This document shows positions 6,833-62,843 of a stretch of 64,000 nucleotides of DNA, one piece after another; within the stretch, counting starts at the first letter, position 1; the number at the start of each line of letters is the position of its first letter. The translations under genes were made by a program, and so were the position numbers. A model generated the notes under the pieces. The model was not told the origin of the DNA. It did not search any database and saw nothing but the letters and a program-made list of their open reading frames with translations. The DNA comes from a virus. The DNA is taken from positions 157,096 through 221,095 of the IMG/VR virus record IMGVR_UViG_3300045999_010033. One strand, given 5' to 3'.

Positions 6833-6883
6833 AGGTATATACCTTTAGTTAGTAATAGAATATGCTATATAGCACTTACTAAC
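6833..6883 (-). promoter_or_regulatory. Structured leader of the giant fibre gene
   Basis: Between the upstream gene and the fibre ATG lie a perfect 12-bp palindrome AGGTATATACCT (6833-6844) ending two bases before the start codon, and an 8-bp stem GTTAGTAA/TTACTAAC (6848-6855 with 6876-6883). The stem encloses another palindrome TGCTATATAGCA (6863-6874). No T-run follows, so it does not look like a terminator. It may be an operator or a translation-controlling RNA structure. Confidence 0.5.
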
Positions 6884-6892
6884 ATAAATATT
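6883..6892 (-). promoter_or_regulatory. Late promoter-like motif upstream of fibre gene
   Basis: Reads AATATTTATG on the minus strand, one mismatch class away from the recurring TATATTTATA motif. It overlaps the stop of the preceding gene and the outer hairpin arm. Confidence 0.4.
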
Positions 6893-7175
6893 AAAACTCC
6901 CCTAAATCAATTACATTTCCATAAAGACTACCCGATATAATTGGGTCAGATGGTGCGTTTGAACCGGATTGCATCCATATCATAGCAGGAACTACTGAAC
7001 CCGATTCCGAATCCAAGCTAGCCGATATATCGTATGAGGTTGCATCTACAACCGCAATTGCACCACTAACAATAAGAGAATATTGGTCATCGGTTAAAGT
7101 GGTGATAGTTACATTTTTAAGTGTGGCTCCATCCAAATCTAATTCAAGTTGTTTTGTTCTTATTCTTGTGGCCAT
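6891..7175 (-). CDS. Small virion-associated protein of unknown function
   Basis: A 94-residue protein starting MATRIRTKQLELDLDGATLK, rich in Ser, Ile and Thr with no membrane segment. It lies one base downstream of the 7177-7830 gene and just upstream of the giant fibre, so a role in fibre attachment or tail assembly is possible. I do not recognise the family. Confidence 0.6.
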   Translation of the reverse strand: MATRIRTKQLELDLDGATLKNVTITTLTDDQYSLIVSGAIAVVDATSYDISASLDSESGSVVPAMIWMQSGSNAPSDPIISGSLYGNVIDLGEF

Positions 7176-7176
7176 T

Positions 7177-7830
7177 TTATACGGGTTTTATTTTTCCAAA
7201 TATTTTAATATCTTGTGGTGGAACTCTATTATCTATTAACCAATAATCGTTAATTTTTATTTCAATATTAGAGCCACTTTGACTTATACTAAATATTCCC
7301 GGCATATGCAATCCATCAATAAATACTTCAAAGTTTTCAGGGCCGATGGTTTCCGTACCATAATCTAATGTTCTATTATTTATGATTAATCTATTTAATA
7401 CGGACTCATCTGCGGTGGCAGGTGTTTTATCTATCACACTTGCACTAACATAAATATATCTTGCACTATATTGTAGGATTTCTTTATGAAAGTCGTTTGT
7501 TATGTTATTGGTAAAAATATATGTAGTCGGCGATTCTGACACTTTTGTATTTGCCTGAAATGCTTTTGGTGCAGAAATCCCATCATTAATAATTTCTTGA
7601 ATACTTCCGGTTGCCGAATTTAAATTAGGTACATTATTTATATTTACTTTTGAAACCGATTGTTTCAATTTTTTTGTATTGGCTTGAAAATTTTTTGGTG
7701 AAGCAATGCCATCATTAATAATTTCTTGAATACTTGCAGTTGCAGAAAGTACATCTGGCAAATTATTAAAATTTATCTTTGATACAACTCGATTGAGTTT
7801 TTTTGTATTCGATGTGAATCGGTTAAGCAT
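7177..7830 (-). CDS. Tail-associated protein with an internal duplication
   Basis: A 217-residue protein. The first ~100 residues contain two copies of a ~43-residue unit, each with an ATxSIQEIINDGI core followed by a PK-x-FQANTK segment. The second half is non-repetitive and contains an FEVFIDGLHMPG segment typical of beta-rich virion domains. It overlaps the upstream gene by eight bases, so the two are probably translationally coupled. Function unknown; the position next to fibre and neck genes suggests a structural role. Confidence 0.65.
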   Translation of the reverse strand: MLNRFTSNTKKLNRVVSKINFNNLPDVLSATASIQEIINDGIASPKNFQANTKKLKQSVSKVNINNVPNLNSATGSIQEIINDGISAPKAFQANTKVSESPTTYIFTNNITNDFHKEILQYSARYIYVSASVIDKTPATADESVLNRLIINNRTLDYGTETIGPENFEVFIDGLHMPGIFSISQSGSNIEIKINDYWLIDNRVPPQDIKIFGKIKPV

Positions 7831-8152
7831 ATTTTTCTAAGTCTCCTCCAACTACAATTTCATCCAAAGTATCTAATGGATATTCAAATCTTGATTTAAT
7901 AAATTTAACTAAAAGTCCATCCGATGCCATTTCAGTAATATAATCTCTTGGATTGATATTTTGTGTATTAATTCTTATTCTTAATCGGTCTTGCTTAGTA
8001 CGATATTCTACCTCTCGTAATATTGGTGCAAACCGCCAACCTTTTGCAATCCAAATCCAATATGTAGAATCATTTAAATTATATGGAGTTAGAATTACTC
8101 TTGGAACATTTCGACTAATTACGTTTGTAATATCTAAAAGTGTTCGTTTCAT
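7823..8152 (-). CDS. Small conserved tail/neck-region protein
   Basis: A 109-residue protein beginning MKRTLLDITNVISRNVPR. It has a basic middle (YRTKQDRLRIRINTQ) and no transmembrane segment. It overlaps the genes on both sides by a few bases, so it belongs to the neck/tail operon. Family not recognised. Confidence 0.6.
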   Translation of the reverse strand: MKRTLLDITNVISRNVPRVILTPYNLNDSTYWIWIAKGWRFAPILREVEYRTKQDRLRIRINTQNINPRDYITEMASDGLLVKFIKSRFEYPLDTLDEIVVGGDLEKYA

Positions 8153-9246
8153 ATCAATTCAATATATTTTCCGGTTATTGTTACTTCATCAGTATTTACA
8201 ACATTCCATCCCAAAGTTATATTATTGAATGTAACCGTTAATGTACTTCCACTCATAGAATATGTATAATGTGTAGTTTCGTAATATCTGACACCATTTA
8301 TGTATATTTTTATATCGTATTGCGTCGCTATTACCGATGAAAATGCTGCGGGTGTTTTTATTAATTTTACATTTGTCAAATTAAATATATTATCCGAAAC
8401 ATAATTCATAAAATCCGAACTATTTAACGATAGATAATCCACAAGGTCTTTATTATCGTAGTATGGTGATTGTGTAGTGAGCATTGCTTCTAATCTGCCA
8501 TCTGCTGTCAAATCCGTTTCAGATGTAACAACCACACGATTAATTGATTGAGATTTCCTCGTTGTATTTTCTGATGCGAATTTTTCAGGTAGAAGATATG
8601 CCTTTACACTTAATGTAAACTCTAATCTATTTATGCGTTCTTGATTATCATTTACTTCATTTACTACATTGTAATCCGCAACACTGGCATAAAACTTAAA
8701 TCGGGCCTTATCACCCCAATATTCATCTGATGCGAAGTTTAATGCCTCAATTACAACGTTCATATGTTCGGTAAAACTTGTCCATGCCATGCAATCGTAG
8801 TTTACTTCGACATAATCCGGCATAGTTATATTATATAAATCATAAGCAGGAGTTATGCCATTTAGAATACTAAACCTGTCGTATCGGTTTCTTTTACTCC
8901 ACTTTGTTACGGTTGAATATGATACGTGTCTATTAAGCATTGGTATTGCATCATTTTTGGCAACAGTTGTCCTTCGTATCATCATTATAGGTAGCTGTAT
9001 TCTACCTTTATTATCTCTATATATACCCTGACGTCTTGCTCCATTCCATCTTTCAGAATTACCATAAATTACTGGTATCTTTATATTTGTATTTTGTGAA
9101 TCGGATAGATTTGGCAATGCCACATCTTCTAAATATGACATGATGGCGTAATCTACATCATATAGAGTTACCGATGGGTTAATATCCCCACCTTCCCATT
9201 TTCTTTGAAGTATTCTATCTGATTGTCTTAGTGGATTCTCTGCCAT
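8149..9246 (-). CDS. Tail completion / sheath stabiliser, gp15-like
   Basis: A 365-residue protein. The central part resembles T4 gp15: an IKIPVIYGNSERW strand, a PIMMIRRT strand, a region equivalent to the gp15 segment that binds the tail end, and a RLEFTLSVKAYLLPE strand. The protein is longer than T4 gp15 (272 residues); the extra residues are a C-terminal beta-rich tail with an IYINGVRYYE segment. It follows gp13- and gp14-like genes in the order known from T4. It would cap the tail and join it to the neck. The assignment rests on pattern and gene order. Confidence 0.6.
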   Translation of the reverse strand: MAENPLRQSDRILQRKWEGGDINPSVTLYDVDYAIMSYLEDVALPNLSDSQNTNIKIPVIYGNSERWNGARRQGIYRDNKGRIQLPIMMIRRTTVAKNDAIPMLNRHVSYSTVTKWSKRNRYDRFSILNGITPAYDLYNITMPDYVEVNYDCMAWTSFTEHMNVVIEALNFASDEYWGDKARFKFYASVADYNVVNEVNDNQERINRLEFTLSVKAYLLPEKFASENTTRKSQSINRVVVTSETDLTADGRLEAMLTTQSPYYDNKDLVDYLSLNSSDFMNYVSDNIFNLTNVKLIKTPAAFSSVIATQYDIKIYINGVRYYETTHYTYSMSGSTLTVTFNNITLGWNVVNTDEVTITGKYIELI

Positions 9247-9702: not shown

Positions 9703-10890
9703 TCAACCTATATAAATTGTGAGTGGAATTTTTTTCAACATCTCTTGATGGTAATCGGCTTCGTTCTTTTTATATTCAAATTGCTTTGTACGTCCGAGTT
9801 CATCTAAATTTTCGCGTAGTTGAGTGATTAGTGTATCCTTTTCGGTTTGAGCTTCGGAACGAAGTGCCGCACCATCAAGTGATACTTCACCATCGGGTAT
9901 CGGAATTGTACTATATTTTTCACGAATAGCACCAAGTAATTCTTTAGCAAGGGCTAATGTGTATTTTCGTATCCATTGTTTTCCAACATCGTTTATGGAA
10001 TCATATGAAATAAAATCATATTTAATATCCGAATAGTCCGATACCTTATTATCTTTTATAGTTATCGCGTTTTTATCAAATTCATTACTTGAAAAATATT
10101 CAAAATAAATTCGTTTTGGGGTTCGAACCGTTGGGATTGGAAATACTTTTATTTTATCATTTACAATATTAAAAGTATATGCAGATTTACGAATTTGGTC
10201 GTTTAACTCAATGTGTTGAATTCTAAGTGCATCCTCAAATAGTGGCATCAATAGGAATTGTGCCGCAGGTGAATACTGTCCAAATCCAAATTCATCCAAT
10301 AAGTTTAGAGTACCTTGCGCACCAACTGAATATGGGTCAAAGAATCTTTGTATCGCAGGTGTTGATTCAAAAAATACTTTTGTAATTTCAAATTTAGATG
10401 CCGTGTTGAATAGAGTTGAAAACGATTGTGATGTGGCAGCATCCTTTGCCAATGAGGCGATATCGTATTCTTGCTTACCTACTTCCATATCAATATACGC
10501 CTTCTTAATATCCGTGTCACCACCAACATACGCAAGTGTTCCATATGCCTGCGACATTCTGAATATCGTAGGAACAAATGAGCCATCTACAAGTGTCTGA
10601 CTAAAGTTTTTGTTTTCTGATTTCGGATAACCACGGAGTATATTTAGATTATTTCTTATATTAAATTGATTAACTTGTGCCGAATATTCCGAAACGGCTT
10701 CTTCAAAGCAGGCATAAAATTGTGTATCTATCATTTCGATATCAACTGTTGGATATCCAAGACGAGTTGCACACCAAACTGCAGTTCTGGGTCCATCGGT
10801 TTGAAAATCCGCATCTGCATCATACAATGCGTATGGGGTTGAACCTGATATTGCCGAACCTGAACCGGGCCATTTTACGTTAAGAGACAT
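9703..10890 (-). CDS. Neck / head-completion protein, gp13-like
   Basis: A 395-residue protein. The N-terminal region has CATRLGYPTVDIEMIDTQF followed by an acidic helix, the signature of gp13-type neck proteins, which begin with a short helix pair of the form LGxPxxxIEvxDxQ. The C-terminal part has KQWIRKYTLALAKELLGAIR and a PDGEVSLDGAAL segment, also typical of this family. It lies immediately after the major capsid gene, separated by a terminator and a late promoter-like motif. It would sit on the portal after DNA packaging. Confidence 0.75.
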   Translation of the reverse strand: MSLNVKWPGSGSAISGSTPYALYDADADFQTDGPRTAVWCATRLGYPTVDIEMIDTQFYACFEEAVSEYSAQVNQFNIRNNLNILRGYPKSENKNFSQTLVDGSFVPTIFRMSQAYGTLAYVGGDTDIKKAYIDMEVGKQEYDIASLAKDAATSQSFSTLFNTASKFEITKVFFESTPAIQRFFDPYSVGAQGTLNLLDEFGFGQYSPAAQFLLMPLFEDALRIQHIELNDQIRKSAYTFNIVNDKIKVFPIPTVRTPKRIYFEYFSSNEFDKNAITIKDNKVSDYSDIKYDFISYDSINDVGKQWIRKYTLALAKELLGAIREKYSTIPIPDGEVSLDGAALRSEAQTEKDTLITQLRENLDELGRTKQFEYKKNEADYHQEMLKKIPLTIYIG

Positions 10891-10904: not shown

Positions 10905-10914
10905 TATAAATATA
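10905..10914 (-). promoter_or_regulatory. Late promoter-like motif upstream of gp13-like gene
   Basis: Exact TATATTTATA on the minus strand, 14 bases before the ATG at 10890. Confidence 0.65.
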
Positions 10915-10974: not shown

Positions 10975-12609
10975 TTAGAGAGTATGTAGACCCTCAACCA
11001 CAATCTTGCCATAGAATTCCGGACGGACTATCTTCTTAGCGTATCTCGTCATAACTCCACGACGTGGTGTGAAGTTAGTCGGGTCATACACAAGCGGAGT
11101 CATAATCAAAGGCACATATGGTGCGTAGACAGCTCCAGTTTCGAAGAAGTTAGAACCTTTGAAACCAAGAAGGATAACGTTCTCAGTCATGTATGGGTTT
11201 TTGTAAACATCATACCTGTTAGAGATTGAACCTACATTGGTTACACCAGCTGCAAATTGAAGAGCATCTTTACCAGGGTTAGCTGAGAAGCCATTCATTG
11301 ATTCGAGGATAGTACATACATCCGGGCTAGCCACGATGAAGTTTGCACCACCACGCATTGTCAACTGATGGATTTTGTTTGATACCTTTTGAAGTTTGAT
11401 ACCAAGTGTTTGATACCAAGTGTTCTTTTGGTAAGCGTTTGCAGATATAGTAGCAGAATCAGGTGCGAAAAGACCGGTTGTTGAATTGTAGTCGTATCCT
11501 ACTCTTGCAGACCAGTAATCAGTAGTCAATGCGTTAGCCTGAAGCATCTCAAGAATTTCCAAATCAATCTCAAGAGAGATGTATTCAGAAAGCATCTGAG
11601 TCAATTCAGCTTCTGCGTCGATACTGTGGTATGCGTTAAGGTCTTGCGCCAATTCAGGAGTCCAAACTGCTTTCAACTTACGAGTTTTAGCAACGATTGG
11701 TTCTGATTTGAGTTCAAGCTCAATTTCAGGAATACCAACATCAGCACCAGTTCTATCTTCAAAATCACCTCTTGAAGTAGCGGTTGGTTGTTTGTGATAA
11801 GATACTGTTGCAGTTGCACCATCGGAAAGGAATGCAGCAGTAGATCCAGTTACAAAGAATTCAACAAAGTTTCCGTTGATATTTGTGTATTGTGGATATA
11901 GTGTGACAGAGCCAGATGTAAGTACAAACGCTCTAACACCATTGAAATCCATTTCGGAAAGAATTGATGAAGATACTGCTACCTTCTTAATACCACCTGC
12001 TGCAACGGATGCTGAAAGTGCGTTTGAATAATCGGTATCTGCCCAAGATGCACTTGTTACAGTTACTCCTGCACCTATACTTCCTGTACCGATTGTTACA
12101 CTAACATCGTTGATGGAATATCCGAAACGACCAGGGCCATAAAGACCTTCTTCTGCTACTTGAGTAGAACCAAGTTTGTTACCTGCAGGTGAAAGAGAAT
12201 CTTTACCAACGGTACCACCTTTACCGAACATTGAAGAACCAGAGAATGCTGGCTTACCTGCTTGGTCGGTTGAATACTTGAAGTCCATGTAGAAGATAAG
12301 ACCTGAAGGTAAGTTCATCGGCTGTACAGAAACGAATTCTTTTGCAGCGATGCTACCAAAGATACGTCTTACAAGCGGAAGAGCTACACCTGCCCATTCT
12401 TCAGAACCAGCTGCGAAGCCAGTCTTTGTTGCTTCATCAAGAAGCTGCTTAGCTTGGTTTTCAAGCAATACTGCCATACCATGCTTTTGTGATTCAGAAC
12501 CTGCTCCTTCAAGAAGGCCTGTTTTTTCCCATTTGGATTTCAAACCCCTAGTTTGCTCAAGCATAATGCTTTGCGGGTTTGCACCATTCATTAATTTTTT
12601 TAAGTCCAT
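10975..12609 (-). CDS. Major capsid protein, gp23-like
   Basis: 544 residues from MDLKKLMNGANPQSIMLEQ. I use this ATG rather than the longer frame from 12678 because the longer one runs into the scaffold gene, and this start has a clean A-rich leader (repeated CAAAA). T4 gp23 features are clear: an LKSKWEKTGLLEG helix, an ENQ-containing segment, then LLDE59-A60, which corresponds to the gp23 maturation site, then LVRRIFGSIAAKEFVSVQPM, matching the conserved gp23 VQPM segment. The first 59 residues are therefore expected to be removed by the prohead protease. It forms the capsid shell. Confidence 0.93.
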   Translation of the reverse strand: MDLKKLMNGANPQSIMLEQTRGLKSKWEKTGLLEGAGSESQKHGMAVLLENQAKQLLDEATKTGFAAGSEEWAGVALPLVRRIFGSIAAKEFVSVQPMNLPSGLIFYMDFKYSTDQAGKPAFSGSSMFGKGGTVGKDSLSPAGNKLGSTQVAEEGLYGPGRFGYSINDVSVTIGTGSIGAGVTVTSASWADTDYSNALSASVAAGGIKKVAVSSSILSEMDFNGVRAFVLTSGSVTLYPQYTNINGNFVEFFVTGSTAAFLSDGATATVSYHKQPTATSRGDFEDRTGADVGIPEIELELKSEPIVAKTRKLKAVWTPELAQDLNAYHSIDAEAELTQMLSEYISLEIDLEILEMLQANALTTDYWSARVGYDYNSTTGLFAPDSATISANAYQKNTWYQTLGIKLQKVSNKIHQLTMRGGANFIVASPDVCTILESMNGFSANPGKDALQFAAGVTNVGSISNRYDVYKNPYMTENVILLGFKGSNFFETGAVYAPYVPLIMTPLVYDPTNFTPRRGVMTRYAKKIVRPEFYGKIVVEGLHTL

Positions 12610-12628
12610 TTTGTTTTGTTTTGTTTTA

Positions 12629-13777
12629 TTACTTAATAATACCAGCCAACTTCTTAAATCTATTTGCGAAGTCAGCATTTTCAGAAATTACTTGCTTTTG
12701 TTGAGCAGCGGTAGGTTTTGTTGATTTAACCGCTCTACTTGCAATACCTTCAGCGATAGCCTTTTTAGCAACTTTAGATACTGATGTGTACTTAAAGTTT
12801 TCTGCCAATGTAGAATATACTAATTTGACTTCTCTAACTGATTTTGTTCTATCCAAAGTTTCGATAACTTTAACCTTTTGCTCGTTGGTCATGTTATGTG
12901 CTCTGAACAATTTGTTTGCGAAAAGAAGTTTAGCGTTTAGAAGATTTACTTCATTGATAGTGCCCTGAAGTGATTTGATTGCCTTGTATGCTTGGTTAAG
13001 TTCGGATTTCAACTTTTTGTTTTCTTCCACTTTCTTTTCCATTTCATCATCATCTGCATCGGTCATATCAGCTTCCATTTCACGAAGAATTTCTTCTAAG
13101 TCAATGGTATCATCATCTTTTGCAGTATCATCTTCATCTTCTTCACTAACAACTACTTTTGGGTCTTCACCTTTATCGGTGCCGGCCTCTTCACCATCGG
13201 CTAGGGATTCCATAGCCATCTGGTCATCATCTTCATCTTCAGTTGATTCTTCTTCTGCGAGTGATGATTCCAATTCTCTAATGATTGATTCAAGATCCAT
13301 ATCATCTTCATCATCATACGCTTCTTCTTCATCTCCGGTGATTTCGTATTCCTCATCATTATCGGAATCAGTGTCATCGTCACCGAAATCCATATCATCG
13401 TCGCCGAAATCCATATCATCGGTATCATCTGTGTCTTCTTCTTCAGTAAGATCTTTTACTTTAGAATAGTCATCAAGTTCAGAACCGGGTTCGCCGGATT
13501 CGGTTTCAGTAGAACCACCTTCGAATTCGGTATCGGCATCATAACCCGAAGGTTCTTTCATGTCACCTGCACCGATTTCAGATGAATCTAATTCCTCGGT
13601 CTTCATTTCTTCTTCATCATCGCTCATTTCGGCTTCTGCTCTCAATTTTTGAGATAGAATTGATTGGAGGCGTGGAGTGAAGGCTTCTTCAAGAGCGAGT
13701 TTAGCATTTGCCAAAGCAGTTTCTTTAACGGCTTTAGCATCAGCAATTGCTTGCTTTAACAATTTTGAATTTGCCAT
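12629..13777 (-). CDS. Prohead scaffold (core) protein, gp22-like
   Basis: A 382-residue, strongly acidic protein. Residues ~50-230 are long runs of Asp/Glu/Ser, followed by a helical region (KKVEENKKLKSELNQAYKA) and a C-terminal RFKKLAGIIK. An acidic helical scaffold directly upstream of the capsid gene is the T4 gp22 arrangement. T4 gp22 is shorter (268 residues); the excess is the acidic repeat region. It should fill the prohead and be degraded by the protease before packaging. Confidence 0.85.
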   Translation of the reverse strand: MANSKLLKQAIADAKAVKETALANAKLALEEAFTPRLQSILSQKLRAEAEMSDDEEEMKTEELDSSEIGAGDMKEPSGYDADTEFEGGSTETESGEPGSELDDYSKVKDLTEEEDTDDTDDMDFGDDDMDFGDDDTDSDNDEEYEITGDEEEAYDDEDDMDLESIIRELESSLAEEESTEDEDDDQMAMESLADGEEAGTDKGEDPKVVVSEEDEDDTAKDDDTIDLEEILREMEADMTDADDDEMEKKVEENKKLKSELNQAYKAIKSLQGTINEVNLLNAKLLFANKLFRAHNMTNEQKVKVIETLDRTKSVREVKLVYSTLAENFKYTSVSKVAKKAIAEGIASRAVKSTKPTAAQQKQVISENADFANRFKKLAGIIK

Positions 13778-13901: not shown

Positions 13902-13935
13902 AAAATGTGATATTTGAGTATAAATATCACATTTT
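13902..13935 (-). terminator. 12-bp hairpin, terminator overlapping a promoter-like motif
   Basis: A perfect 12-bp inverted repeat AAAATGTGATAT/ATATCACATTTT with a 10-base loop, just downstream of the 13956-14390 gene. The arms end in A/T runs on both strands. The loop and one arm contain the late promoter-like motif listed separately. Confidence 0.65.
13919..13928 (-). promoter_or_regulatory. Late promoter-like motif for scaffold-capsid operon
   Basis: Reads GATATTTATA on the minus strand. It lies inside the hairpin, about 140 bases upstream of the scaffold ATG. Confidence 0.5.
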
Positions 13936-16678: not shown

Positions 16679-16951
16679 TTAGTTAACAACTATATCCCAA
16701 TACTTAGAAGTTTCTTTTTTTGGCATTGATGTGTTTGTATATTTTGGACTAAGACTGTATATACGACGTCCTCCATTAATAGTACGAGAATATGTATAGT
16801 ATTTCGGATTTGGTAGATCATTTGTTCCATCAACTTCAAGTGGTAGCATGCCTCGTTTACGTCTTTGCCTATGTAGCGGATTATGCTTTTCGGCTTCATT
16901 CAGTTTTTGTATTCTATTAGGAATGAGTTTCATTAATTGCATGCTAATCAT
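16679..16951 (-). CDS. Small basic head-operon protein with LNE leader
   Basis: 90 residues with starts possible at residues 1, 4 or 7 (MISMQLMKLIPNRIQKLNE). The N-terminal stretch ends L-N-E-A, the cleavage pattern, and the remainder is basic and Tyr-rich (RRKRGMLPLEVDG, NPKYYTYSRTINGGRR). A late promoter-like motif lies 20 bases upstream. Probably a packaged DNA-associated protein; inferred from charge and leader only. Confidence 0.6.
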   Translation of the reverse strand: MISMQLMKLIPNRIQKLNEAEKHNPLHRQRRKRGMLPLEVDGTNDLPNPKYYTYSRTINGGRRIYSLSPKYTNTSMPKKETSKYWDIVVN

Positions 16952-16970: not shown

Positions 16971-16980
16971 TATAAATATA
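16971..16980 (-). promoter_or_regulatory. Late promoter-like motif downstream of protease gene
   Basis: Exact TATATTTATA on the minus strand, 20 bases before the 16951 start. Confidence 0.65.
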
Positions 16981-17781: not shown

Positions 17782-18192
17782 TTATTCTGATATTTTTCTA
17801 ATATGTTGTTCTAACTTAATCAACCTTTCTTTTATTTTCAAAATGTTTCCATTTGTACGTTTCCAAAATTGGTCATTAGATACTCCGTTTTCTTGCTTCA
17901 ATTTACCATACCAATTTAGAAATTTTTCCATTTCTGCCAATTGCTTATTGATGTTAGAAACGCCTTTACCGATTTTTCGGTGAGCAGGGATATCTTCATT
18001 TTTTAGTTCTAACCAACGATTTTCTTTTACAACGGTATACCCAGTTAGGTCAGCTTGTTGTTTCGCACTTTGCTTTGTATCTCCTCTTTTTTTGAATGCG
18101 TTTGGTGACTGGTATCCTTGAACGTTCCCTGTCACATTCATTTCTCTTACAACCTTTCTTATAAATTCTTTTAATTTACTTTTGTGTTGCAT
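17782..18192 (-). CDS. Leader-bearing protein with GYQSPNAF motif
   Basis: 136 residues. The N-terminal MQHKSKLKEFIRKVVRE matches the basic leader ending V-R-E. It is followed by GNVQGYQSPNAFKKRG and TGYTVV, a combination I recognise from head-operon proteins of T4-like marine phages. The C-terminal half is a charged helical region. It overlaps the upstream gene by 17 bases. Likely a minor head protein, function unknown. Confidence 0.65.
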   Translation of the reverse strand: MQHKSKLKEFIRKVVREMNVTGNVQGYQSPNAFKKRGDTKQSAKQQADLTGYTVVKENRWLELKNEDIPAHRKIGKGVSNINKQLAEMEKFLNWYGKLKQENGVSNDQFWKRTNGNILKIKERLIKLEQHIRKISE

Positions 18193-19048
18193 TTTTCAAT
18201 TCTTTTATTAGTTCGTATGCCATCATAAGCGCGGATACGTGTTGCTCTTTAACACGTTTATTCTGCTTTATTTTTTTTATCTGCCCTATCGTTTCTACTA
18301 ATTTTATTTTTGTAACTTTATCGGTAATCTTCTTTCCAATTTCATTTAGGGATTGTGTAATTTTATTTACTTCACTTTGAATGTGATTTGAAAAGCCGGA
18401 ACTATTAGTCATTCCATTAATATATTCTCGTAGTAAAACCTTTTGCTCATTACTTAGGTCTTTATACTTTGTATTAAAACTTTCTATTAAAATTTTATAC
18501 GAAAGAGCCCTTACAGTTTCATCTTGTTTTTTGAATTGTTCCAATACGGCATCTTTTATTTTTGCATCTTTATTCTGTATTGATTTATTTATTATGTTTT
18601 CTGCAATTGTAAATCTTGAAGATACCACATCGGTTGGATCTAAAATTTCGGATTCATTTATTGATTCAAAAATTTTATAAATTGATGCAAGAACTTTGTA
18701 GTTTGAAACCGATGATTTTAATAAATCTTCTATATTATACGATTCTCTTATTTTTTTTACTAAATTATATTTTTCTTTTGTCAATTTAGCTTCATCAAGA
18801 CGTTTGCGTGCTTCACAAACGGTATCAATAAACTTTTCTGCTTTTGCTTCAGAATTATATTTTTCGTTTATAAGATACTGATATAATTTTAATTCTTTTG
18901 AAAGTTCTTTTTTAGAATTAAAAAATTCTTGTAGGATTTTTTCTGCTTTAGATTTATTTTCCGACATAATTTCGGAGGTGATTTGTCTAAGCAGTAATTC
19001 AAAAATGAATCCTGTATTTTTGAACTTAGAATGTTTAATTTTTTTCAT
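18176..19048 (-). CDS. Conserved helical protein beside the portal gene
   Basis: 290 residues from MKKIKHSKFKNTGF; the frame also allows a TTG one codon earlier. It starts KFKNTGFIFELLLRQITSEI, followed by a long charged all-helical body. Proteins of this type lie next to the portal gene in many T4-like phages of aquatic bacteria. No catalytic motif is visible. It may be an internal head or prohead core protein. Confidence 0.6.
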   Translation of the reverse strand: MKKIKHSKFKNTGFIFELLLRQITSEIMSENKSKAEKILQEFFNSKKELSKELKLYQYLINEKYNSEAKAEKFIDTVCEARKRLDEAKLTKEKYNLVKKIRESYNIEDLLKSSVSNYKVLASIYKIFESINESEILDPTDVVSSRFTIAENIINKSIQNKDAKIKDAVLEQFKKQDETVRALSYKILIESFNTKYKDLSNEQKVLLREYINGMTNSSGFSNHIQSEVNKITQSLNEIGKKITDKVTKIKLVETIGQIKKIKQNKRVKEQHVSALMMAYELIKELKNATQK

Positions 19049-19069
19049 CAAAGGGATAATTTATCTCTT

Positions 19070-19079
19070 TATAAATATA
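19070..19079 (-). promoter_or_regulatory. Late promoter-like motif downstream of portal gene
   Basis: Exact TATATTTATA on the minus strand, 21 bases before the ATG at 19048. It falls in the short gap after the portal gene. Confidence 0.65.
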
Positions 19080-20836: not shown

Positions 20837-20865
20837 AGTTAATCTTTATTATATATATACTATTT

Positions 20866-22859: not shown

Positions 22860-23200
22860 GTCGGCGGATTATATTTTTTATCACTTCCCTTTTTATCCCA
22901 ACTAACTCTTACTGGCTTTTTACCTTTACTGCCATCACCTTTATCGCCACGTCCTGCTTTGTTTTGTTTTGCACGTTTACGTCTTACGAAACTTGCTCTA
23001 CCTTTTTTTCCAAGCTTTTTTGCCGCTGCCGATGAAAGACATGCCGCATATGCTTCACCTTCTTCGCCGGCTCCACACTTTCCAACACGTTTACCACTGG
23101 AATCATATCTATCCCAGCCACCACCTCCTTTACCTCCCCATTTGCCCTTTCCGAACCACTTACGGAGGTCTTCGTCTAAAAGGTCAAATAGTTTAATCAT
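22856..23200 (-). CDS. Small basic leader-bearing protein, DUF5872-like
   Basis: 114 residues. Leader MIKLFDLLDE is followed by a Gly/Lys-rich stretch (GKGKWGGKGGGGWDRYDSSG), a KCGAGEEGEAYAACL segment and a C-terminal ASFVRRKRAKQNKAGRGDKG. The strongly basic body suggests DNA binding in the capsid. It overlaps the downstream gene by four bases and the upstream one by one base. Confidence 0.7.
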   Translation of the reverse strand: MIKLFDLLDEDLRKWFGKGKWGGKGGGGWDRYDSSGKRVGKCGAGEEGEAYAACLSSAAAKKLGKKGRASFVRRKRAKQNKAGRGDKGDGSKGKKPVRVSWDKKGSDKKYNPPT

Positions 23201-23523
23201 TAGAATACGGAATTGATTTGAGATGAAACCTCTTTACCATACTTTGATTGACATTGTTTCATCAATTCATTATAGATATTTGTTCTCAAATCTATAAGCT
23301 CTTTTGGAGTATGTCCAAACTCTTTCTGCATATCCAACATACTATTCAAAATGTTTTCAAATGCTCCCATTTTCATAAATTTGGCGAACTCAAGTACCGC
23401 TTCGGTATGCGCATTTCTATCGGTTAATTTTTCTATCTTTTTAACGATAGGGTCTACATTGATCGCTTCTTTTAATCCGGTAACTACCTTTGTTTCTGAT
23501 AGTATATTAGTTAGTTTAATCAT
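23200..23523 (-). CDS. Leader-bearing helical head protein
   Basis: 107 residues. Leader MIKLTNILSE is followed by a second possible site GLKE-A at about residue 19, then an all-helical body. It is the first gene of the leader-bearing group downstream of the terminase and has its own promoter-like motif. Function unknown. Confidence 0.65.
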   Translation of the reverse strand: MIKLTNILSETKVVTGLKEAINVDPIVKKIEKLTDRNAHTEAVLEFAKFMKMGAFENILNSMLDMQKEFGHTPKELIDLRTNIYNELMKQCQSKYGKEVSSQINSVF

Positions 23524-23549: not shown

Positions 23550-23559
23550 TATAAATATA
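23550..23559 (-). promoter_or_regulatory. Late promoter-like motif downstream of terminase
   Basis: Exact TATATTTATA on the minus strand, 26 bases before the ATG at 23523, in the gap after the terminase gene. Confidence 0.65.
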
Positions 23560-30803: not shown

Positions 30804-30813
30804 AATAAATATC
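30804..30813 (-). promoter_or_regulatory. Late promoter-like motif just upstream of polyprotein
   Basis: Reads GATATTTATT, only three bases before the ATG at 30800. If used, the mRNA would be nearly leaderless. Confidence 0.45.
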
Positions 30814-34828: not shown

Positions 34829-34838
34829 TATAAATATT
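34829..34838 (-). promoter_or_regulatory. Late promoter-like motif upstream of S74 fibre
   Basis: Reads AATATTTATA on the minus strand, 15 bases before the ATG at 34813. Confidence 0.6.
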
Positions 34839-39401: not shown

Positions 39402-39611
39402 TTATTTTTTAACTGTAGAAGAATACATCTTATCGTTTACGATACCACCTCTGGCTTGCTTTAATCTTTCTTCACTTACTGCCCCACTGTCAATCTTTTG
39501 TAAATCATCGGTGGAATATGGAGTCTTTCTAGCGTTACTGACATCTTTGCCGATTTTATCTGTACCAAGTTGAGTTTGTTGTGCTTTATAAAGGTCTACT
39601 ATTTGTGCCAT
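39402..39611 (-). CDS. Small hydrophilic protein of unknown function
   Basis: 69 residues, hydrophilic and without Cys, starting MAQIVDLYKAQQTQLG. It ends one base before the resolvase gene and has a promoter-like motif 14 bases upstream. The family is not recognised; it sits between structural and replication genes. Confidence 0.55.
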   Translation of the reverse strand: MAQIVDLYKAQQTQLGTDKIGKDVSNARKTPYSTDDLQKIDSGAVSEERLKQARGGIVNDKMYSSTVKK

Positions 39612-39625: not shown

Positions 39626-39635
39626 TATAAATATA
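39626..39635 (-). promoter_or_regulatory. Late promoter-like motif upstream of small gene
   Basis: Exact TATATTTATA, 14 bases before the ATG at 39611. Confidence 0.65.
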
Positions 39636-40827: not shown

Positions 40828-40837
40828 TATAAATATT
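40828..40837 (-). promoter_or_regulatory. Late promoter-like motif upstream of 39638-40822 gene
   Basis: Reads AATATTTATA, five bases before the ATG at 40822. A terminator hairpin lies just upstream of it. Confidence 0.5.
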
Positions 40838-42763: not shown

Positions 42764-42773
42764 TATAAATATA
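42764..42773 (-). promoter_or_regulatory. Late promoter-like motif upstream of structural gene
   Basis: Exact TATATTTATA, 20 bases before the ATG at 42743. Confidence 0.65.
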
Positions 42774-53761: not shown

Positions 53762-54199
53762 TTATCCGTTTACGTTTATTGTTACTGAATCTCTTATAGC
53801 AGGATTAGATGTCAATGAAAATTGTAATTCAAGGTTTACTCTATGATTATCAATATCGTTTTCATCATAATCAAATAATATTTGGTCTACATTTATATAT
53901 GGTAACCAAATGTTTACTGCTTCTGTTACTGTTCTTTCTATTTCTGCATCAATTTGCCCCTCAATAATTGGTTCAAAAAGTATCCTCCATATATCACATC
54001 CAAATTCGGGTTGCATTACGCGTTCACCTTTTTTTGTTAGGATTAGATTAATCAAATTATATTTTACTTGAGATAGAGTAGTATAATTCACAGCAAAAAC
54101 ACCATTGCTATTCGATGTTTGGTTTATGGATATCCCTAACGATTTGTAATCGTTTTCGGAAAGGTCTTGTACACTTACTCTACCAAGTTCTATTGCCAT
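53762..54199 (-). CDS. Baseplate wedge protein, gp25-like
   Basis: 145 residues. LILTKKGERVMQPEFGCDIW followed by IWRILFEP is the gp25/W-type signature, a remnant lysozyme-like fold. It joins gp6 and the sheath. It overlaps its upstream gene by one base and is five bases from gp6, giving a wedge operon. Confidence 0.9.
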   Translation of the reverse strand: MAIELGRVSVQDLSENDYKSLGISINQTSNSNGVFAVNYTTLSQVKYNLINLILTKKGERVMQPEFGCDIWRILFEPIIEGQIDAEIERTVTEAVNIWLPYINVDQILFDYDENDIDNHRVNLELQFSLTSNPAIRDSVTINVNG

Positions 54200-54711
54200 T
54201 ATTTAAATCTTTTAACTAACTCAGTGTAATCTCTAGTCAATGCTTTTGCTACAATATCGACTGCTTCATTACCAGTGCTTTCAACCGTCACTTGTGGTGC
54301 CGGTTGATAATTCATATTTTTTGTGGAAAGATTTATCTCTCCCCAACCATTTTCCGAATCTCTATGGATAGCATCTAAAACTGACCCACCCATCATTCCG
54401 GCTAATCCACCACCATCACGTCTTTGATCTGCGGTAAATGGTGTAGTTGAATTTAGAATTTCGTTAAGCATAGGATCTTTTGATAAAGTTCTTTGCTTAG
54501 TATTACTTCTATTAATTCCAACCGATGGAGAAGAAGCAGTTTGTTTTTTTACACTAGATTTTATAGTTTCATTCGTATTTGACTTTTTATTTATTGCCGG
54601 AACTAATACTCCTGATTTAATAAGTTTAGCTACTTCTTCTTTTACTTGTTGTTTTACTTCATTTTTTACAACCTCTTTAATAAGAGTTATTAATACATCC
54701 GATTTAGACAT
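54199..54711 (-). CDS. Baseplate-associated protein of unknown function
   Basis: 170 residues. The N-terminus is a coiled-coil-like charged helix (KNEVKQQVKEEVAKLIKSG); the middle is Ser/Thr/Lys-rich and flexible, and the C-terminus has STTPFTADQRRDGGG and a final helix. It starts the gp25-gp6 operon with its own promoter-like motif. I recognise no family. Confidence 0.6.
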   Translation of the reverse strand: MSKSDVLITLIKEVVKNEVKQQVKEEVAKLIKSGVLVPAINKKSNTNETIKSSVKKQTASSPSVGINRSNTKQRTLSKDPMLNEILNSTTPFTADQRRDGGGLAGMMGGSVLDAIHRDSENGWGEINLSTKNMNYQPAPQVTVESTGNEAVDIVAKALTRDYTELVKRFK

Positions 54712-54725: not shown

Positions 54726-54735
54726 TATAAATATT
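54726..54735 (-). promoter_or_regulatory. Late promoter-like motif upstream of baseplate operon
   Basis: Reads AATATTTATA, 14 bases before the ATG at 54711. Confidence 0.6.
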
Positions 54736-57645: not shown

Positions 57646-58050
57646 TTAAAATTTTGATTTTATTTCATCAATTTCTATTTCCAAATCAATTAACTTTTCT
57701 TTACTATCCCTTTCCATTTCGGAAACGGTATGTTCTATTTCGGAAAGTAATTGAGATTTTTCTGCTTCAGATAAATAACCTTCTTGTCCTTTTTGTTTTC
57801 CTGCAGCTGCTGCTAATCTCTGTGCAATGGTTGCTAACTTAATTAGATGATCATCATTCTTTACTGAGACTTCAATAAGGTCTTTTACTATCGGTGCAAT
57901 TACTGCTGCCTCTCCCACGTTTTTAATTAATTTTCGTAAGGATTCGATGAGTTCTGAAATGTTCTTCTTTTTATTTACTTGGTTTGTGTAAATATCTTGA
58001 AAAACATCAGATAGAGTTTTGCCGGGAAACAATTGAAAATCTACTGACAT
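57646..58050 (-). CDS. Small helical protein of unknown function
   Basis: 134 residues, almost entirely helical and charged, with a coiled-coil C-terminus (KEKLIDLEIEIDEIKSK). The N-terminus is FQLFPGKTLSDVFQDIY. It follows the sigma-factor gene after a leader and may belong to the tail. I do not recognise the family. Confidence 0.6.
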   Translation of the reverse strand: MSVDFQLFPGKTLSDVFQDIYTNQVNKKKNISELIESLRKLIKNVGEAAVIAPIVKDLIEVSVKNDDHLIKLATIAQRLAAAAGKQKGQEGYLSEAEKSQLLSEIEHTVSEMERDSKEKLIDLEIEIDEIKSKF

Positions 58051-58111: not shown

Positions 58112-58121
58112 AATAAATATA
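58112..58121 (-). promoter_or_regulatory. Late promoter-like motif upstream of 57646-58050
   Basis: Reads TATATTTATT, 61 bases before the ATG at 58050. The leader contains a weak nested inverted repeat (58071-58110). Confidence 0.5.
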
Positions 58122-58135: not shown

Positions 58136-58828
58136 TTACATTTTAATATCACCCGTATCTTGATATTCGTTAAATAACTCCATTTGTTTCTGTCGCATTT
58201 TGTTTACCACTTTTGTAATATAATGAGTGGGGCAACCGGTCATTTCTCTAACTAAAAGATATAGACTTTTCTTATTGAAATTTTCTATGTATTCGGCACG
58301 ACGGAACAATTCCAATACTGAATCTGCAATTTGAATATCACGTTTTTTCTGAAAATATGTTTCTAAATTCTTATCCCAATAAGCTAGCATTAACCTATTA
58401 AATACCTTATATTCGGAATCTTTAACCTCATCGTGAAAATTATTTTCTACATCCCATTGTTCGGGCATTTTGGAGATTATATCGGTATCTTTGTACCTTT
58501 TGTAATTAGAATTGTTATTCAATATAAGGTAGTTTCTCGCTACAATTGTAAAGTAACTATACGCCTTTCCTTTATTAGGGTCATTGTACATATGGATTTT
58601 CTCTACCATAAACGCAACAACCTGCGACATAACATCTTCCGGCTCATCATCGAAATATGTAAACTTCCATTTATTGTAAACAATTTCGGCAAGCTTTTCA
58701 AATGATTGCTGGATTCTTTCTTTGTAGATTCTATCTCTAATTTCTTTTTCTGAAGCCGTATTATATTCCAATATGGCGTTCTCCGTGTCTTTTGTGAAGT
58801 ATTCTCTTACTACTTTTTTTCTTGGCAT
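58136..58828 (-). CDS. Late sigma factor, gp55-like
   Basis: 230 residues. An N-terminal helix is followed by a conserved sigma region-2 core with DDEPEDVMSQVVAFMVEKIH and YSYFTIVARNYLILNNN, then a C-terminal KMRQKQMELF. This is the architecture of T4 gp55, which directs host RNA polymerase to late promoters. Presence of the recurring late motif in this genome agrees with that role. It is two bases downstream of a small membrane protein gene. Confidence 0.88.
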   Translation of the reverse strand: MPRKKVVREYFTKDTENAILEYNTASEKEIRDRIYKERIQQSFEKLAEIVYNKWKFTYFDDEPEDVMSQVVAFMVEKIHMYNDPNKGKAYSYFTIVARNYLILNNNSNYKRYKDTDIISKMPEQWDVENNFHDEVKDSEYKVFNRLMLAYWDKNLETYFQKKRDIQIADSVLELFRRAEYIENFNKKSLYLLVREMTGCPTHYITKVVNKMRQKQMELFNEYQDTGDIKM

Positions 58829-59095: not shown

Positions 59096-59725
59096 TTAAA
59101 CTATTTCATATCCTTTTAAATAAAACTCATTTGCTTTTTTATGTTTTACTTCAATCAAATCTCCATCGGGAGATTTCATAATGATAATATCATTTCTTCC
59201 ATAATTAATTTTTTTAGTAACCTGAGTAGTATACACACGTTCTTTTATAGTTATTCCATCCAAATGGTCTATCTCATGTTGCACAACTACAGTTTGTAGT
59301 GTTTCGATTGAAACCGAATCTTTATCACCATCGGGATTAATAGAAAATTGCATTTCACCGAAATTATCAGTCATTACCGTAACAGAGTTAGAACGAAGTG
59401 TTCTTATTGGTTTGTTTATTGTTTTAGGAATAGATAAACACCCTTCATAAAATATGAATCCCTCTTCATCACGTTTTACGATGTATGGATTTAATAAAAA
59501 TAGTGAAGTATCTCTAACACGTATTAGGCATGCACGTTTTTGAATACCTAACTGATTTGCAGATATACCCACTCCACCATATTCATCAATGGCGCTAGAA
59601 AGAATGGATTCCAATTCATCTGCGGACTCTTTTGTAAATTCAGTACGTGGTACTGATGTTTTTAAATTTTTATCAAATTCGGGATTTGATAATCCATTTG
59701 CTTTTTTGTCTACAATTAATTTCAT
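59096..59725 (-). CDS. Phage peptide deformylase
   Basis: 209 residues. The three family motifs are present: GVGISANQLG (51-60, a variant of GxGLAAxQ), EGCLS (94-98, metal-binding Cys96), and HEIDH (150-154). It would remove the formyl group from new proteins' N-termini. Its overlap with the UVDE gene by four bases places them in one operon. Phage-encoded deformylases are known in marine phages; the role here is probably to aid fast host takeover. Confidence 0.92.
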   Translation of the reverse strand: MKLIVDKKANGLSNPEFDKNLKTSVPRTEFTKESADELESILSSAIDEYGGVGISANQLGIQKRACLIRVRDTSLFLLNPYIVKRDEEGFIFYEGCLSIPKTINKPIRTLRSNSVTVMTDNFGEMQFSINPDGDKDSVSIETLQTVVVQHEIDHLDGITIKERVYTTQVTKKINYGRNDIIIMKSPDGDLIEVKHKKANEFYLKGYEIV

Positions 59726-60621
59726 ATAACTTTGTTTATAAATGGTAAAATAGCTAACTCTTTTGCTTTCGCTTCAACCATAATATCTACATCCAATTCG
59801 TATGTATTGGGGAGTGAATTAATATAATTAGAGTGAGCTTGTGGTTTTTCTTTGATGTTGTTTTCGTGCAATGCTTTCGATTCGGAATAATGCACAACTG
59901 GCGTTATGCCTTTTGGCCAAGTGGTAGCTGCTGCTTTCAGTGCTTCTTCTTCCGTCCAATCACTTGTACAAAATTGATGGTGATGATAATCGAACACAAT
60001 CGGAATACCGATTTTATTGTGTACGTATAGTAAATCTTTTACAGAATACATAGATGCCTTATCATCATTCTCAACGGTAAGCCGAGAACGAACCGATTCC
60101 GATAATCTATCAAAATTGGTACAGAATCTATCCATTGCCTCTTTCTTGTTGCCATAAACGCCGTTACAGTGTATGTTTATCTTATTGTAAGGAGAACGTT
60201 CTAGCCCCATTAGGTCGAATATTTTAGCGTGTAGTTCCAAATCTGCGATTGCATTGCGGACTACACTTTCTTTAGGGGATGTAAGAACTACAAATGGACC
60301 AGGATGCGATGTAATACGAACACCCATCAATTGGGCGTAATCACCTGCCTTTCTGAGCTCGGTTGCAATTTGTTTGTAATCCTTTAAGGCAGTAATATCA
60401 ATATGGTCACCCCAAGGAATGATGGCAGATGATAGTCTGAAAAAGTAAATATCGTTTGCTACGTTCCATTCCAATATTTTGATAATATCACTTGCGTTTT
60501 TAAGTGCAAGTTCTGACACGTAATCCAATCCTTTACTATCAAGAGTTTTTTTAACCATACTTCGATTTGTGGTAATCTTTTTACCCAATGATAAGTTTAT
60601 ACAAGCGTAACCTAAATTCAT
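59722..60621 (-). CDS. uvsE: UV damage endonuclease (UVDE/UvsE)
   Basis: 299 residues. Typical UVDE layout: MNLGYACINLSLGKK start, EWNVANDIYFFRLSSAIIPW, SHPGPFVVLTSP, NIHCNGVYGNKKEA, ENDDKASMY and FDYHHHQFC blocks with His/Glu/Asp metal ligands of a TIM barrel. It nicks next to UV lesions for repair. Upstream sequence has a related TATATTTAGG motif. Confidence 0.9.
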   Translation of the reverse strand: MNLGYACINLSLGKKITTNRSMVKKTLDSKGLDYVSELALKNASDIIKILEWNVANDIYFFRLSSAIIPWGDHIDITALKDYKQIATELRKAGDYAQLMGVRITSHPGPFVVLTSPKESVVRNAIADLELHAKIFDLMGLERSPYNKINIHCNGVYGNKKEAMDRFCTNFDRLSESVRSRLTVENDDKASMYSVKDLLYVHNKIGIPIVFDYHHHQFCTSDWTEEEALKAAATTWPKGITPVVHYSESKALHENNIKEKPQAHSNYINSLPNTYELDVDIMVEAKAKELAILPFINKVI

Positions 60622-60635: not shown

Positions 60636-60645
60636 CCTAAATATA
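60636..60645 (-). promoter_or_regulatory. Promoter-like motif upstream of UVDE
   Basis: Reads TATATTTAGG, intermediate between the late motif and the Bacteroidota TAnnTTTG element; 14 bases before the ATG at 60621. Confidence 0.4.
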
Positions 60646-61950: not shown

Positions 61951-61960
61951 TATAAATATC
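61951..61960 (-). promoter_or_regulatory. Late promoter-like motif upstream of small gene
   Basis: Reads GATATTTATA, 18 bases before the ATG at 61932. Confidence 0.6.
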
Positions 61961-61973
61961 CCCATAAAACAAA

Positions 61974-62004
61974 AATGGGTGAAGTTTTTCTGACTTCACC
62001 CATT
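61974..62004 (-). terminator. Strong hairpin terminator after the Hsp20 gene
   Basis: A perfect 12-bp stem AATGGGTGAAGT/ACTTCACCCATT with a seven-base loop. T-rich sequence follows on the minus strand. It lies 21 bases beyond the Hsp20 stop. Confidence 0.85.
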
Positions 62005-62025
62005 AATATAACACTTTTTTGTGAA

Positions 62026-62418
62026 TTAATCAACTTTAATTTCCACACTTTTTGGTTTTGCTTCCTCTTTTTTAGGAATGGTAAGATAGAGAACACCATT
62101 TAAAATCTTTGCTTCGGCTTTTTCTCCATCAAATTTTTTACCTACGGCAATCTTTTCATTAACTTTTGAAATTAATTGCTTTTGGATAGATGTCATTTCC
62201 TTTTCTGCCGATTTTACTACAATAGAATCTTCGTGTAATTCAATTGTAATATCATCTTTAGAGTGTCCTAATACTGATAAAGCAATCTGTGCTTTATCAT
62301 CTAATACTTCAATTGCCAATTTGGAATTTTCGTATTGATATTCAGTTGTAGTAAATATCGTATCGTTAAAAAACGAATCAAAAATCCTATCAAGTGCATC
62401 GTATTTTTTGTAATACAT
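62026..62418 (-). CDS. Small heat-shock protein, Hsp20/alpha-crystallin
   Basis: 130 residues. N-terminal MYYKKYDALDRIFDSFF and then an alpha-crystallin domain with IALSVLGHSKDDITIELHED, and a late ILNGVLYLTIPKK strand in place of the usual GVL-x-V/I-P motif; ends in EIKVD. It would hold unfolded proteins during rapid virion protein synthesis. T4-like marine phages are known to carry Hsp20. Confidence 0.9.
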   Translation of the reverse strand: MYYKKYDALDRIFDSFFNDTIFTTTEYQYENSKLAIEVLDDKAQIALSVLGHSKDDITIELHEDSIVVKSAEKEMTSIQKQLISKVNEKIAVGKKFDGEKAEAKILNGVLYLTIPKKEEAKPKSVEIKVD

Positions 62419-62477
62419 AGTAATTAAGTTTTTAAGGTTATTTAATGCCTATTATAATTCAATTACTATACCAAATA

Positions 62478-62506
62478 AAAAAGTATGACAATACGTCATA
62501 CTTTTT
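62478..62506 (-). terminator. Hairpin terminator after the putative holin gene
   Basis: A perfect 12-bp stem AAAAAGTATGAC/GTCATACTTTTT with a five-base loop, ending in T-rich sequence. It lies 27 bases beyond the 62533 stop. Confidence 0.85.
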
Positions 62507-62532
62507 AAGTTTTACCTGAAATAATTTCTGAA

Positions 62533-62811
62533 TTACTTCTCGTGAAGAGCATCAATTTTAGTAGCTACCTCTGGGTCTTTGTTTGTTAATTGTGCCAATA
62601 TAAGAGCAACTACTGATCCAACCATTACATTTGCATTACCGACGGTTGCAACCCACTCTGGTAATTGTACTGATGTTGTTTGTAGATAAGAAATAATTGC
62701 AGAAACACCACCAGTTACGATGGACAACCATTGGATGGTTACGAAGAACTTAGGTTTTGAAGAAAAAGTTCTCAAAACTAATTCAGAAATAAAAAGTGAA
62801 AGTGCGTTCAT
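62533..62811 (-). CDS. Small two-helix membrane protein, possible holin
   Basis: 92 residues from the ATG at 62811 (an upstream TTG would give a seven-residue extension). Two hydrophobic segments (VTIQWLSIVTGGVSAIISYL and NANVMVGSVVALILAQL) and a charged C-terminus. It lies just downstream of an exported NlpC/P60 lysin, which makes a holin role plausible. No family match by eye. Confidence 0.55.
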   Translation of the reverse strand: MNALSLFISELVLRTFSSKPKFFVTIQWLSIVTGGVSAIISYLQTTSVQLPEWVATVGNANVMVGSVVALILAQLTNKDPEVATKIDALHEK

Positions 62812-62833
62812 AGTTAAAAGTTTTTGTTTCAAT

Positions 62834-62843
62834 AATAAATATC
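62834..62843 (-). promoter_or_regulatory. Late promoter-like motif upstream of holin-like gene
   Basis: Reads GATATTTATT, 22 bases before the ATG at 62811. Confidence 0.5.

Follow-up and report, generated by a model that had tools for sequence, protein, structure and literature searches.

A recurring late-promoter-like element and a putative gp55-type sigma factor in a T4-related virus, probably of a Bacteroidota host

Introduction

The late promoters of phage T4 consist of a single 8-bp TA-rich -10 box, TATAAATA, with no -35 element; they stand before virion genes, and they are read by gp55, a phage-coded sigma-region-2 protein, with RNA starting 6 bases past the box. According to the available text of PMC7892883, gp55 has pockets that take up the flipped adenines of positions -12, -9 and -8; N13 and H95 hold the one at -9, and Y97 stacks on -12. 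A T4-family variant has been described in Aeh1, the late promoter of which is changed at -13/-12 (a/gC); the review that gives it, in the portion available, also describes gp33 as poorly conserved even among T4 relatives and asks why a fused late sigma has not been found (PMC2988020). For pf16, the accessible part of the report gives only T4-type late promoters (PMC5587285), and in pelagimyophages the late promoters have escaped published methods, according to the accessible part of PMC7029224. On the host side, the Bacteroidota primary-sigma promoter has the -7 box TAHHTTTG, with T-7 and G-5 nearly invariant and AT-rich stretches upstream (PMC6847099, available text).

Here, we describe an element with the core (A)TATTTATA that recurs in a window of 64,000 bases, positions 157096-221095 of the 221,095-base virus record IMGVR_UViG_3300045999_010033. 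An initial annotation, made from the letters alone, had seen in it a recurring late-promoter-like element of a T4-like phage, and the analysis supported this view. The window encodes a T4-type major capsid protein, Gp23 (10975..12678, minus strand; Pfam E 2.9e-77), and terminase, baseplate and portal genes are also present in it. The host is probably a member of the Bacteroidota, because of the form of the promoters and the relatives. We consider it probable that the sites are late promoters of a T4-related phage, with a consensus of their own, and that they are read by the host RNA polymerase together with the putative sigma factor encoded at 58136-58828.

Placement of the element

The pattern DATATTTATW has 16 matches in the window, namely the 14 sites of the initial annotation, all of which exist and lie on the minus, gene-bearing strand, and two on the plus strand (19076 and 40292). 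Raw counts show a modest excess only, two- to threefold over shuffles, which is what a chance recurrence in an AT-rich genome would have in its favour: dinucleotide shuffles of both strands gave a mean of 8.2 and reached 16 in 1 of 100, and on the gene strand alone the 14 observed compare with 4.6 +/- 2.2 (order-3 Markov model, 200 runs, maximum 12). Placement, not count, is decisive for the reality of the element. Thirteen of the 14 sites fall between called genes, and intergenic DNA makes up only 1,608 of the 64,000 bases. Strand, intergenic placement and the conservation described below refute chance, to which we attach practically no probability.

Enrichment across the whole 221-kb record, which the initial annotation had proposed to check, was found as well. 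An unbiased 8-mer search placed ATATTTAT at the top of the upstream list, in 30 of 99 regions against 0.73 expected, and, as a control, a generalized version of this script was applied to 50 kb of T4, where it recovered TATAAATA (12 of 27 against 0.15 expected). In the record, ATATTTATA occurs 31 times in the gene sense, 25 of these copies being intergenic, versus four antisense copies, none of them intergenic; the gene-sense copies of TATTTATA are intergenic in 25 of 39 cases. The other TATNNATA octamers (16 compared) have 0-5 intergenic copies each, TATATATA having the most (5 of 8). The initial annotation would have given up its reading had the motif been equally frequent inside genes; the frequencies are strongly unequal, and intergenic placement prevails. 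Most of the intergenic TATTTATA copies (19 of 25) lie at 120-221 kb of the record, where the identified capsid, tail and baseplate genes sit. The element would act like a T4 late promoter, yet we do not class it as one, because the defining consensus TATAAATA was tested and only 2 of its 26 gene-sense copies in the record are intergenic.

The resemblance to a mirror of the T4 element, which the initial annotation had taken as meaningful, is a coincidence. TAT..ATA is palindromic, and the reversal of TATAAATA amounts to a swap of AA for TT; the mirror needs no explanation, because TATNNATA is its own reverse complement outside the central bases. One might nevertheless read the sites as T4-type late promoters facing the other way, so that TATAAATA, which is indeed their reverse complement, would drive antisense or plus-strand RNA from the plus strand. 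However, the window genes past ~6.9 kb are called on the minus strand (as are 272 of the 301 genes in the record, with a simple open reading frame (ORF) caller), the purine-biased position described below lies downstream in the gene sense with the core mostly shortly before a start codon, and 80 related loci hold 210 intergenic copies on the capsid strand versus 1 on the opposite strand, all of which makes this reading highly improbable.

The sites themselves, all on the minus strand, can be followed from high to low coordinates. The core GATATTTATT matches the pattern at 62834..62843, and GATATTTATA at 61951..61960 stands 18 nucleotides (nt) before an ATG, preceded by a hairpin-like repeat (seen by eye). 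Immediately downstream of the sigma gene, TATATTTATT at 58112..58121 lies 61 nt before gene 57646-58050. The form AATATTTATA occurs at 54726..54735 (before gene 54199-54711, the next gene down being a baseplate wedge gene), at 40828..40837 (3 nt past a terminator-like hairpin and T run, and 5 nt before gene 39638-40822) and at 34829..34838 (before gene 30872-34813, the product of which has a virion/tail-like C-terminus). The form TATATTTATA precedes gene 42120-42743 (42764..42773), gene 39402-39611 (39626..39635), gene 23200-23523 (23550..23559), gene 18176-19051 (19070..19079), gene 16679-16951 (16971..16980) and, just after the capsid gene and 3 nt past a terminator-like hairpin, the neck gene 9703-10890 (10905..10914). 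The weakest of the listed sites, GATATTTATT at 30804..30813, lies 3 nt before gene 26505-30800, and GATATTTATA at 13919..13928 lies 141 nt before gene 12629-13777, the next gene down being that of the major capsid protein. Two variant cores had been absent from the initial list, namely ATATATATA at 20850..20858, before the portal gene 19088-20836, and ATACTTATA at 63819..63827, before gene 63338-63802. Measured from the 9-base core to the called gene start, the distances at 13 sites are 3 (30804), 5, 14, 14, 14, 15, 19, 20, 21, 22, 26, 61 (58112) and 141 (13919), in agreement with those given initially (mostly 5-26, with 13919 and 58112 farther and 30804 at three). The one non-intergenic site of the 14 is, as we read it, that at 61951, which is missing from the upstream list because the ORF there was extended to an earlier ATG (start 61965).

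Anatomy of the element and its likely start

An alignment was made of 44 sites that match ATATTTATA fully or with a single mismatch. The core columns carry 0.83-1.67 bit and the upstream columns at most 0.47 bit, the upstream flank being AT-rich without a conserved block; as in T4, there is a single -10-type box without a -35 sequence. The column 4 bases past the core is A in 31, G in 11, T in 2 and C in none of the 44 sites, and in 192 non-redundant sites from the record and its relatives, left after 108 of 300 had been removed as near-duplicates, it is A in 90, G in 64, T in 38 and again C in none. Transcription likely starts at this purine-biased base or at the next one, that is, some 4-5 bases past the box compared with 6 in T4, and from such a start the leaders would usually be short.

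The leaders are A-rich and the element usually lies <30 bases from the start codon, which could also suit an element of translation or of the mRNA leader that is not a promoter; to our knowledge, Bacteroidota hosts lack Shine-Dalgarno sites. This explanation appears very unlikely, given that the core is fixed but its distance is not (3-141 bases), that the purine position downstream is base-specific and that two window sites lie 3 nt past a terminator-like hairpin (such hairpins occur within 60 nt upstream of 3 of 39 sites record-wide).

Ahead of the late sites, AT-richness is highest near -18, -28 and -38. A 10-bp phasing of these stretches can be seen and exceeds random rotations (p 0.0003), but we do not rely on it because column permutation gave p 0.08 (detrended) and 0.15, and because a 14-base period exceeds the 10-bp period after detrending.

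The peaks near -18 and -28, although not the third, recall the upstream stretches of host promoters (PMC6847099, available text), and they bear on the possibility that TATTTATA is a variant host promoter, a degenerate TAHHTTTG box read by the host primary sigma. If the start is 4 bases downstream, the two elements have T-12, A-11, T-8 and T-6 in common, so that the upstream TA, the T residues at -8 and -6 and the AT-rich upstream region are alike. In the same register, however, T-7 and G-5 are both replaced by A, in 42 and 38 of the 44 sites, respectively, and no column before these sites conserves the -33 TTTG. The initial annotation had suggested a change of G to A in the host box, but the register over TAHHTTTG is that of TATTTATA, not TATATTTA, and it entails two differences. 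Moreover, the record contains host-type boxes apart from the late sites: TAHHTTTG has 126 gene-sense copies, 16 of them intergenic (TAACTTTG, TATCTTTG and TATATTTG are examples), and 13 of these 16 are found at record positions under 120,000, a half with only 6 of the 25 late boxes, and 3 above. A host-type or early-type box, TATATTTA within TATATTTAGGTAATAATTAA (60638..60645, minus strand), precedes gene 59722-60621 in the window; it is not a late site and has the same form as the early-type promoters of the Flavobacterium phage immuto, where its counterpart is TATATTTAG(G/A)TA. This sequence is found at 18 of the 27 upstream TATATTTA sites of immuto, usually with TTG ~19 bases before, and immuto keeps its GTTG-N~19-TATATTTAG(G/A)TA apart from TATTTATA, a few copies of which overlap its TATATTTA list. 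Simple drift from G to A is not the best account of the element, because host-type boxes occur separately and mostly in the other genome half, and we regard a host promoter variant as quite unlikely.

A further observation concerns the early-type boxes of immuto: the leader tcAATAATTAAAA before the start codon is common to 11 of the 18, and it is perhaps a leader-RNA signal.

Conservation in related phages

With the capsid protein as query, 80 viral contig loci encoding related capsid proteins (62-80% identity; at least 80 in total) were fetched. Intergenic ATATTTATA is present in 79 of the 80, and the core is constant across relatives while the flanks differ. Four loci, with insufficient sequence beyond the capsid gene, were set aside; in the other 76, TATTTATW occurs 58-138 nt past the end of the capsid match in 67 (57 of these being ATATTTATA), compared with 11.6% of random 320-nt windows of the same loci, and TATAAATA occurs in this stretch in none. 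Directly before the capsid gene, TATTTATW was found in 1 of 73 loci; thus, the element sits after the capsid gene, not directly before it. In the upstream regions of relatives, ATATTTAT and TATTTATA lead the 8-mer list in both capsid-relative subsets: with near-duplicate contigs included in the counts, ATATTTAT stands in 138 of 248 regions of one subset and in 79 of 179 of the other, where TATTTATA stands in 76 of 179. The farther subset, labelled 62-68% identity, contains four loci at 72-74%. Around the sigma gene of relatives (80 loci), ATATTTAT is again the top 8-mer, in 56 of 195 upstream regions.

Three named phages have both a sigma homologue and the same kind of element, namely immuto, the Microcystis phage Mel-JY01 and the Rhodothermus phage RM378. 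Immuto carries 25 upstream copies of TATTTATA, 24 of them preceded by A or C, and in 80 immuto-type loci CTATTTATA stands in 53 of 432 upstream regions against 1.08 expected, many of the regions coming from near-duplicate contigs (the corresponding site alignment retains 18 of 127 sites, one of them misaligned, after removal of 109 near-duplicates). In Mel-JY01, ATATTTATA is upstream in 5 of 30 regions against 0.07 expected. In RM378, for which 10 kb was too little and 100 kb more was used, TTATTTAA is upstream in 17 of 49 against 0.28 expected, with 19 of 32 copies intergenic; either of two proteins may read this motif, because that phage encodes an ECF-type sigma besides its gp55-like protein. 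Immuto and RM378 resemble the present phage in their T4-type head genes, in a sigma homologue (36% identity in immuto, by profile in RM378) and in TATTTA-type elements before genes, and they differ from it in the element itself, CTATTTATA or ATATTTATA in immuto and TTATTTAA in RM378, and in the annotation of their sigma homologues as hypothetical.

Two database entries deserve mention here. PP395634.1 (Mel-JY01), labelled a Microcystis phage, carries a capsid protein (54%), a sigma (36%) and a late element of the Bacteroidota-type group, and its host label may be worth re-examining. RM378 has two candidate proteins, one ECF-like and annotated as a sigma, the other gp55-like and labelled hypothetical (Rm378p144, Rm378p020).

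The putative late sigma factor

The protein of 230 amino acids (aa) encoded at 58136..58828 (minus strand) had been proposed as a likely phage sigma, and profile and fold comparison support this in a gp55-type form. It consists of a sigma-region-2 part (~10-115) and a C-terminal helical domain (~137-225; ~90 residues, four helices). Searches confirmed 259 relatives in viral contigs, and 80 of these were retained. A pattern scan of genome contigs gave 63 matches and no confirmed relative. Among named phages, homologues are found in LR756508 (44%) and in Mel-JY01 and immuto (36%; QQO92070.1 in immuto), all with E <1e-33; the RM378 homologue is noise by sequence (E 6) and was detected by profile with E 2.4e-8 over 202 columns, a match that spans the C-terminal domain too. 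For the profiles, homologues hand-chosen for spread were aligned with the window protein (15 of 80 fetched homologues in alignment A1, 32 of 162 in A3). Compared with nine T4-type gp55s by hhalign, the 33-protein alignment matched in region 2 with a probability of 84-88% and E 3e-6 to 8e-6, and a 7-protein alignment with 76-87% and E 4e-6 to 2e-5. The controls gave 0.2% for a reversed profile and 2.3% for the best of 40 column shuffles. With T4 gp55 taken as a single sequence, the probability was a weak 0.8%.

Two AlphaFold2 models were obtained, with mean predicted local distance difference test (pLDDT) values of 71 and 78. For both, T4 gp55 (7d7c_F) was the first fold match in the PDB (Z 10.8 over 112 residues at 10.9 Å and Z 10.3 over 113 residues at 3.6 Å), and the 50 matches listed in the second of these searches were all sigma factors or sigma-holding polymerase complexes, as judged by titles. 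Many of the sigma fold matches extend across the C-terminal domain towards their own C-terminal end, with a large overall root-mean-square deviation, and in these models the domain may be sigma-4-like. Such a domain is an addition relative to T4 gp55, which has a helix-loop-helix and a clamp-binding tail instead (PMC7892883, available text). A QMELYNEF-like C-terminal stretch is conserved in the window clade and not kept in the immuto clade. Other routes contributed little: a Pfam scan of the window protein gave no identification, Sigma70_r2 touches 15 of the 33 members with a best E of 0.01, the window's own protein not being among them, and phrog_15577, of unknown function, reached E 0.00074 at best, with 7 of 16 members matching. 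It took profile-profile comparison against a gp55 alignment made for this purpose, and comparison of folds, to identify the sigma. Judged in this way from sequence and predicted fold, the protein appears to be a divergent gp55-type sigma, a distant counterpart of T4 gp55.

The element and the protein can be set side by side with their T4 equivalents. TATTTATA differs from TATAAATA at two central bases. Two registers are possible, box on box (-10 and -9 changed) or start on start (-9 and -8 changed), and position -9 is altered in either. Aeh1 likewise departs from the consensus within the T4 family of late elements, although there -13/-12 are altered and here the central AA. In the profile alignment, the nine T4-type gp55s have N (seven) or K (two) in the column of N13, where the 33 window-group proteins have T (32) or D (one). 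In the Y97 column, all 33 window-group proteins have Y, as do seven of the T4-type set, the other two having F. The columns of H95 and T99 are variable even among the T4-type proteins and are little informative. The joint change of residue 13 and base -9 is no more than a correlation from one profile alignment.

Genes behind the late sites and the transcription machinery

Among 23 scanned proteins behind late sites, eight match virion proteins (sheath, tube, baseplate hub, tail fibre, baseplate/virion protein, portal, neck and tail/minor head), two are enzymes (the cytidylyltransferase-like protein of 26505-30800 and a methyltransferase) and 13 are of unknown function. The scan covered mainly the virion half and left out genes 61756, 62533 and 16679 together with 12 of the 22 outside the window. 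As in T4, virion genes are thus found behind the boxes, and the downstream genes seem to agree with late expression.

Searches for a polymerase or clamp of the phage's own were negative in the record, with the reservation that Pfam also misses the window sigma itself: there was no match to the multisubunit polymerase families PF00562 and PF00623 (controls 14/14 each), to the bacterial clamp PF02768 (control matches 11/14), to the T4-type clamp PF02916 (a search without a T4 control) or to the T7-type polymerase PF00940, a search that matched no control genome either and is therefore uninformative. The system may differ from that of T4 in its sliding clamp, neither type of which was found by Pfam. 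DNA polymerase family A gave a below-cut-off match only, at record 123183-123458. The host polymerase core is most likely the enzyme for late transcription.

A model of late transcription

In the model that we favour, the core (A)TATTTATA would occupy the -10 position with no -35 element, the sigma-2 domain of the 58136-58828 protein would bind the host RNA polymerase core, and the phage sigma would open the DNA at TATTTATA; RNA synthesis would begin 4-5 bases past the final A, and the leaders would be short. For immuto, the model predicts late 5' ends 4-5 bases past TATTTATA and early ends after TATATTTAGG.

Several findings weigh against this model. The start is suggested by base bias, and the register relative to T4 is ambiguous by two bases. 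Six of the 25 late boxes fall in the non-virion genome half, more than half of the scanned downstream proteins (13 of 23) are of unknown function, and the virion share of 8 in 23 is not a fair sample, because the 12 unscanned genes are mostly short and in the other genome half. At the sigma-gene loci of relatives, exact ATATTTATA accounts for only 4 of 41 non-redundant sites. With respect to the protein, the fold does not single out gp55, because other sigmas lie within 1 Z unit of the gp55 match; Foldseek alone gave no E <0.05, phmmer and hmmsearch against PDB chains gave no significant single-sequence gp55 match, the PHROG late sigma reached E 0.22 with only 1 of 16 members, and phrog_234 and Pfam Sigma70_r2 (PF04542) had no match in the record.

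Others among these contrary findings bear on the possibility that the late promoter is real but has a reader other than the 58136-58828 protein, be it a further sigma or an RNA polymerase of the phage. The protein and the motif are linked by co-occurrence only, RM378 has its second, ECF-type sigma, and LR756508, the named phage with the closest sigma, has no enriched 8-mer in 40 kb. Still, a different reader seems unlikely: no multisubunit polymerase signature appeared in the record, and the sole sigma-4 Pfam trace (record 76200-76280), which was dropped, is below the cut-off and falls in an ORF of 179 aa that resembles HNH proteins by eye.

The consensus variant of the T4 late system reported here appears to be new; in the literature searched, with most subscription journals outside its reach, we found no earlier report of the element. 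With it, late genes can be mapped in a large T4-like branch that is represented here chiefly by metagenomic sequences, and the sigma/promoter series TATAAATA, CTATTTATA, ATATTTATA and TTATTTAA may show how a sigma-2 domain shifts its base preference. Published methods missed the late promoters of pelagimyophages, and therefore unbiased 8-mer-type searches may help elsewhere. The extra C-terminal domain re-opens the question of why no single-chain late sigma was known. We speculate, tentatively and with more doubt than conviction, that T4-superfamily phages on the Bacteroidota/Rhodothermota side share a late sigma in which gp55 region 2 is fused to a sigma-4-like domain, a TATTTA(T/A)A consensus of their own and a clamp-free late transcription not coupled to replication in the T4 manner.

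Other features of the record

The two ends of the record (14-711 and 220397-221095) have ~700 bases in common at 98.6% identity, and because of this the record may be near complete, although it may also be incomplete. Both ends hold the same ATACTTATA element and gene, either as terminal redundancy or as an assembly overlap. Megablast of 14 kb of the window against 50,697 phage records gave no match.

At 26505-30800, a 1431-aa protein has its cytidylyltransferase-like domain at the N-terminus, and at 34860-38003 a single 1047-aa protein joins an SbcD-like phosphoesterase to an SbcC-like ATPase. A phage peptide deformylase is encoded at 59096-59725, two genes upstream of the sigma gene. At the left end of the window (1-6830), a minus-strand frame of 2301 aa starts at 6830 and continues just beyond the window.

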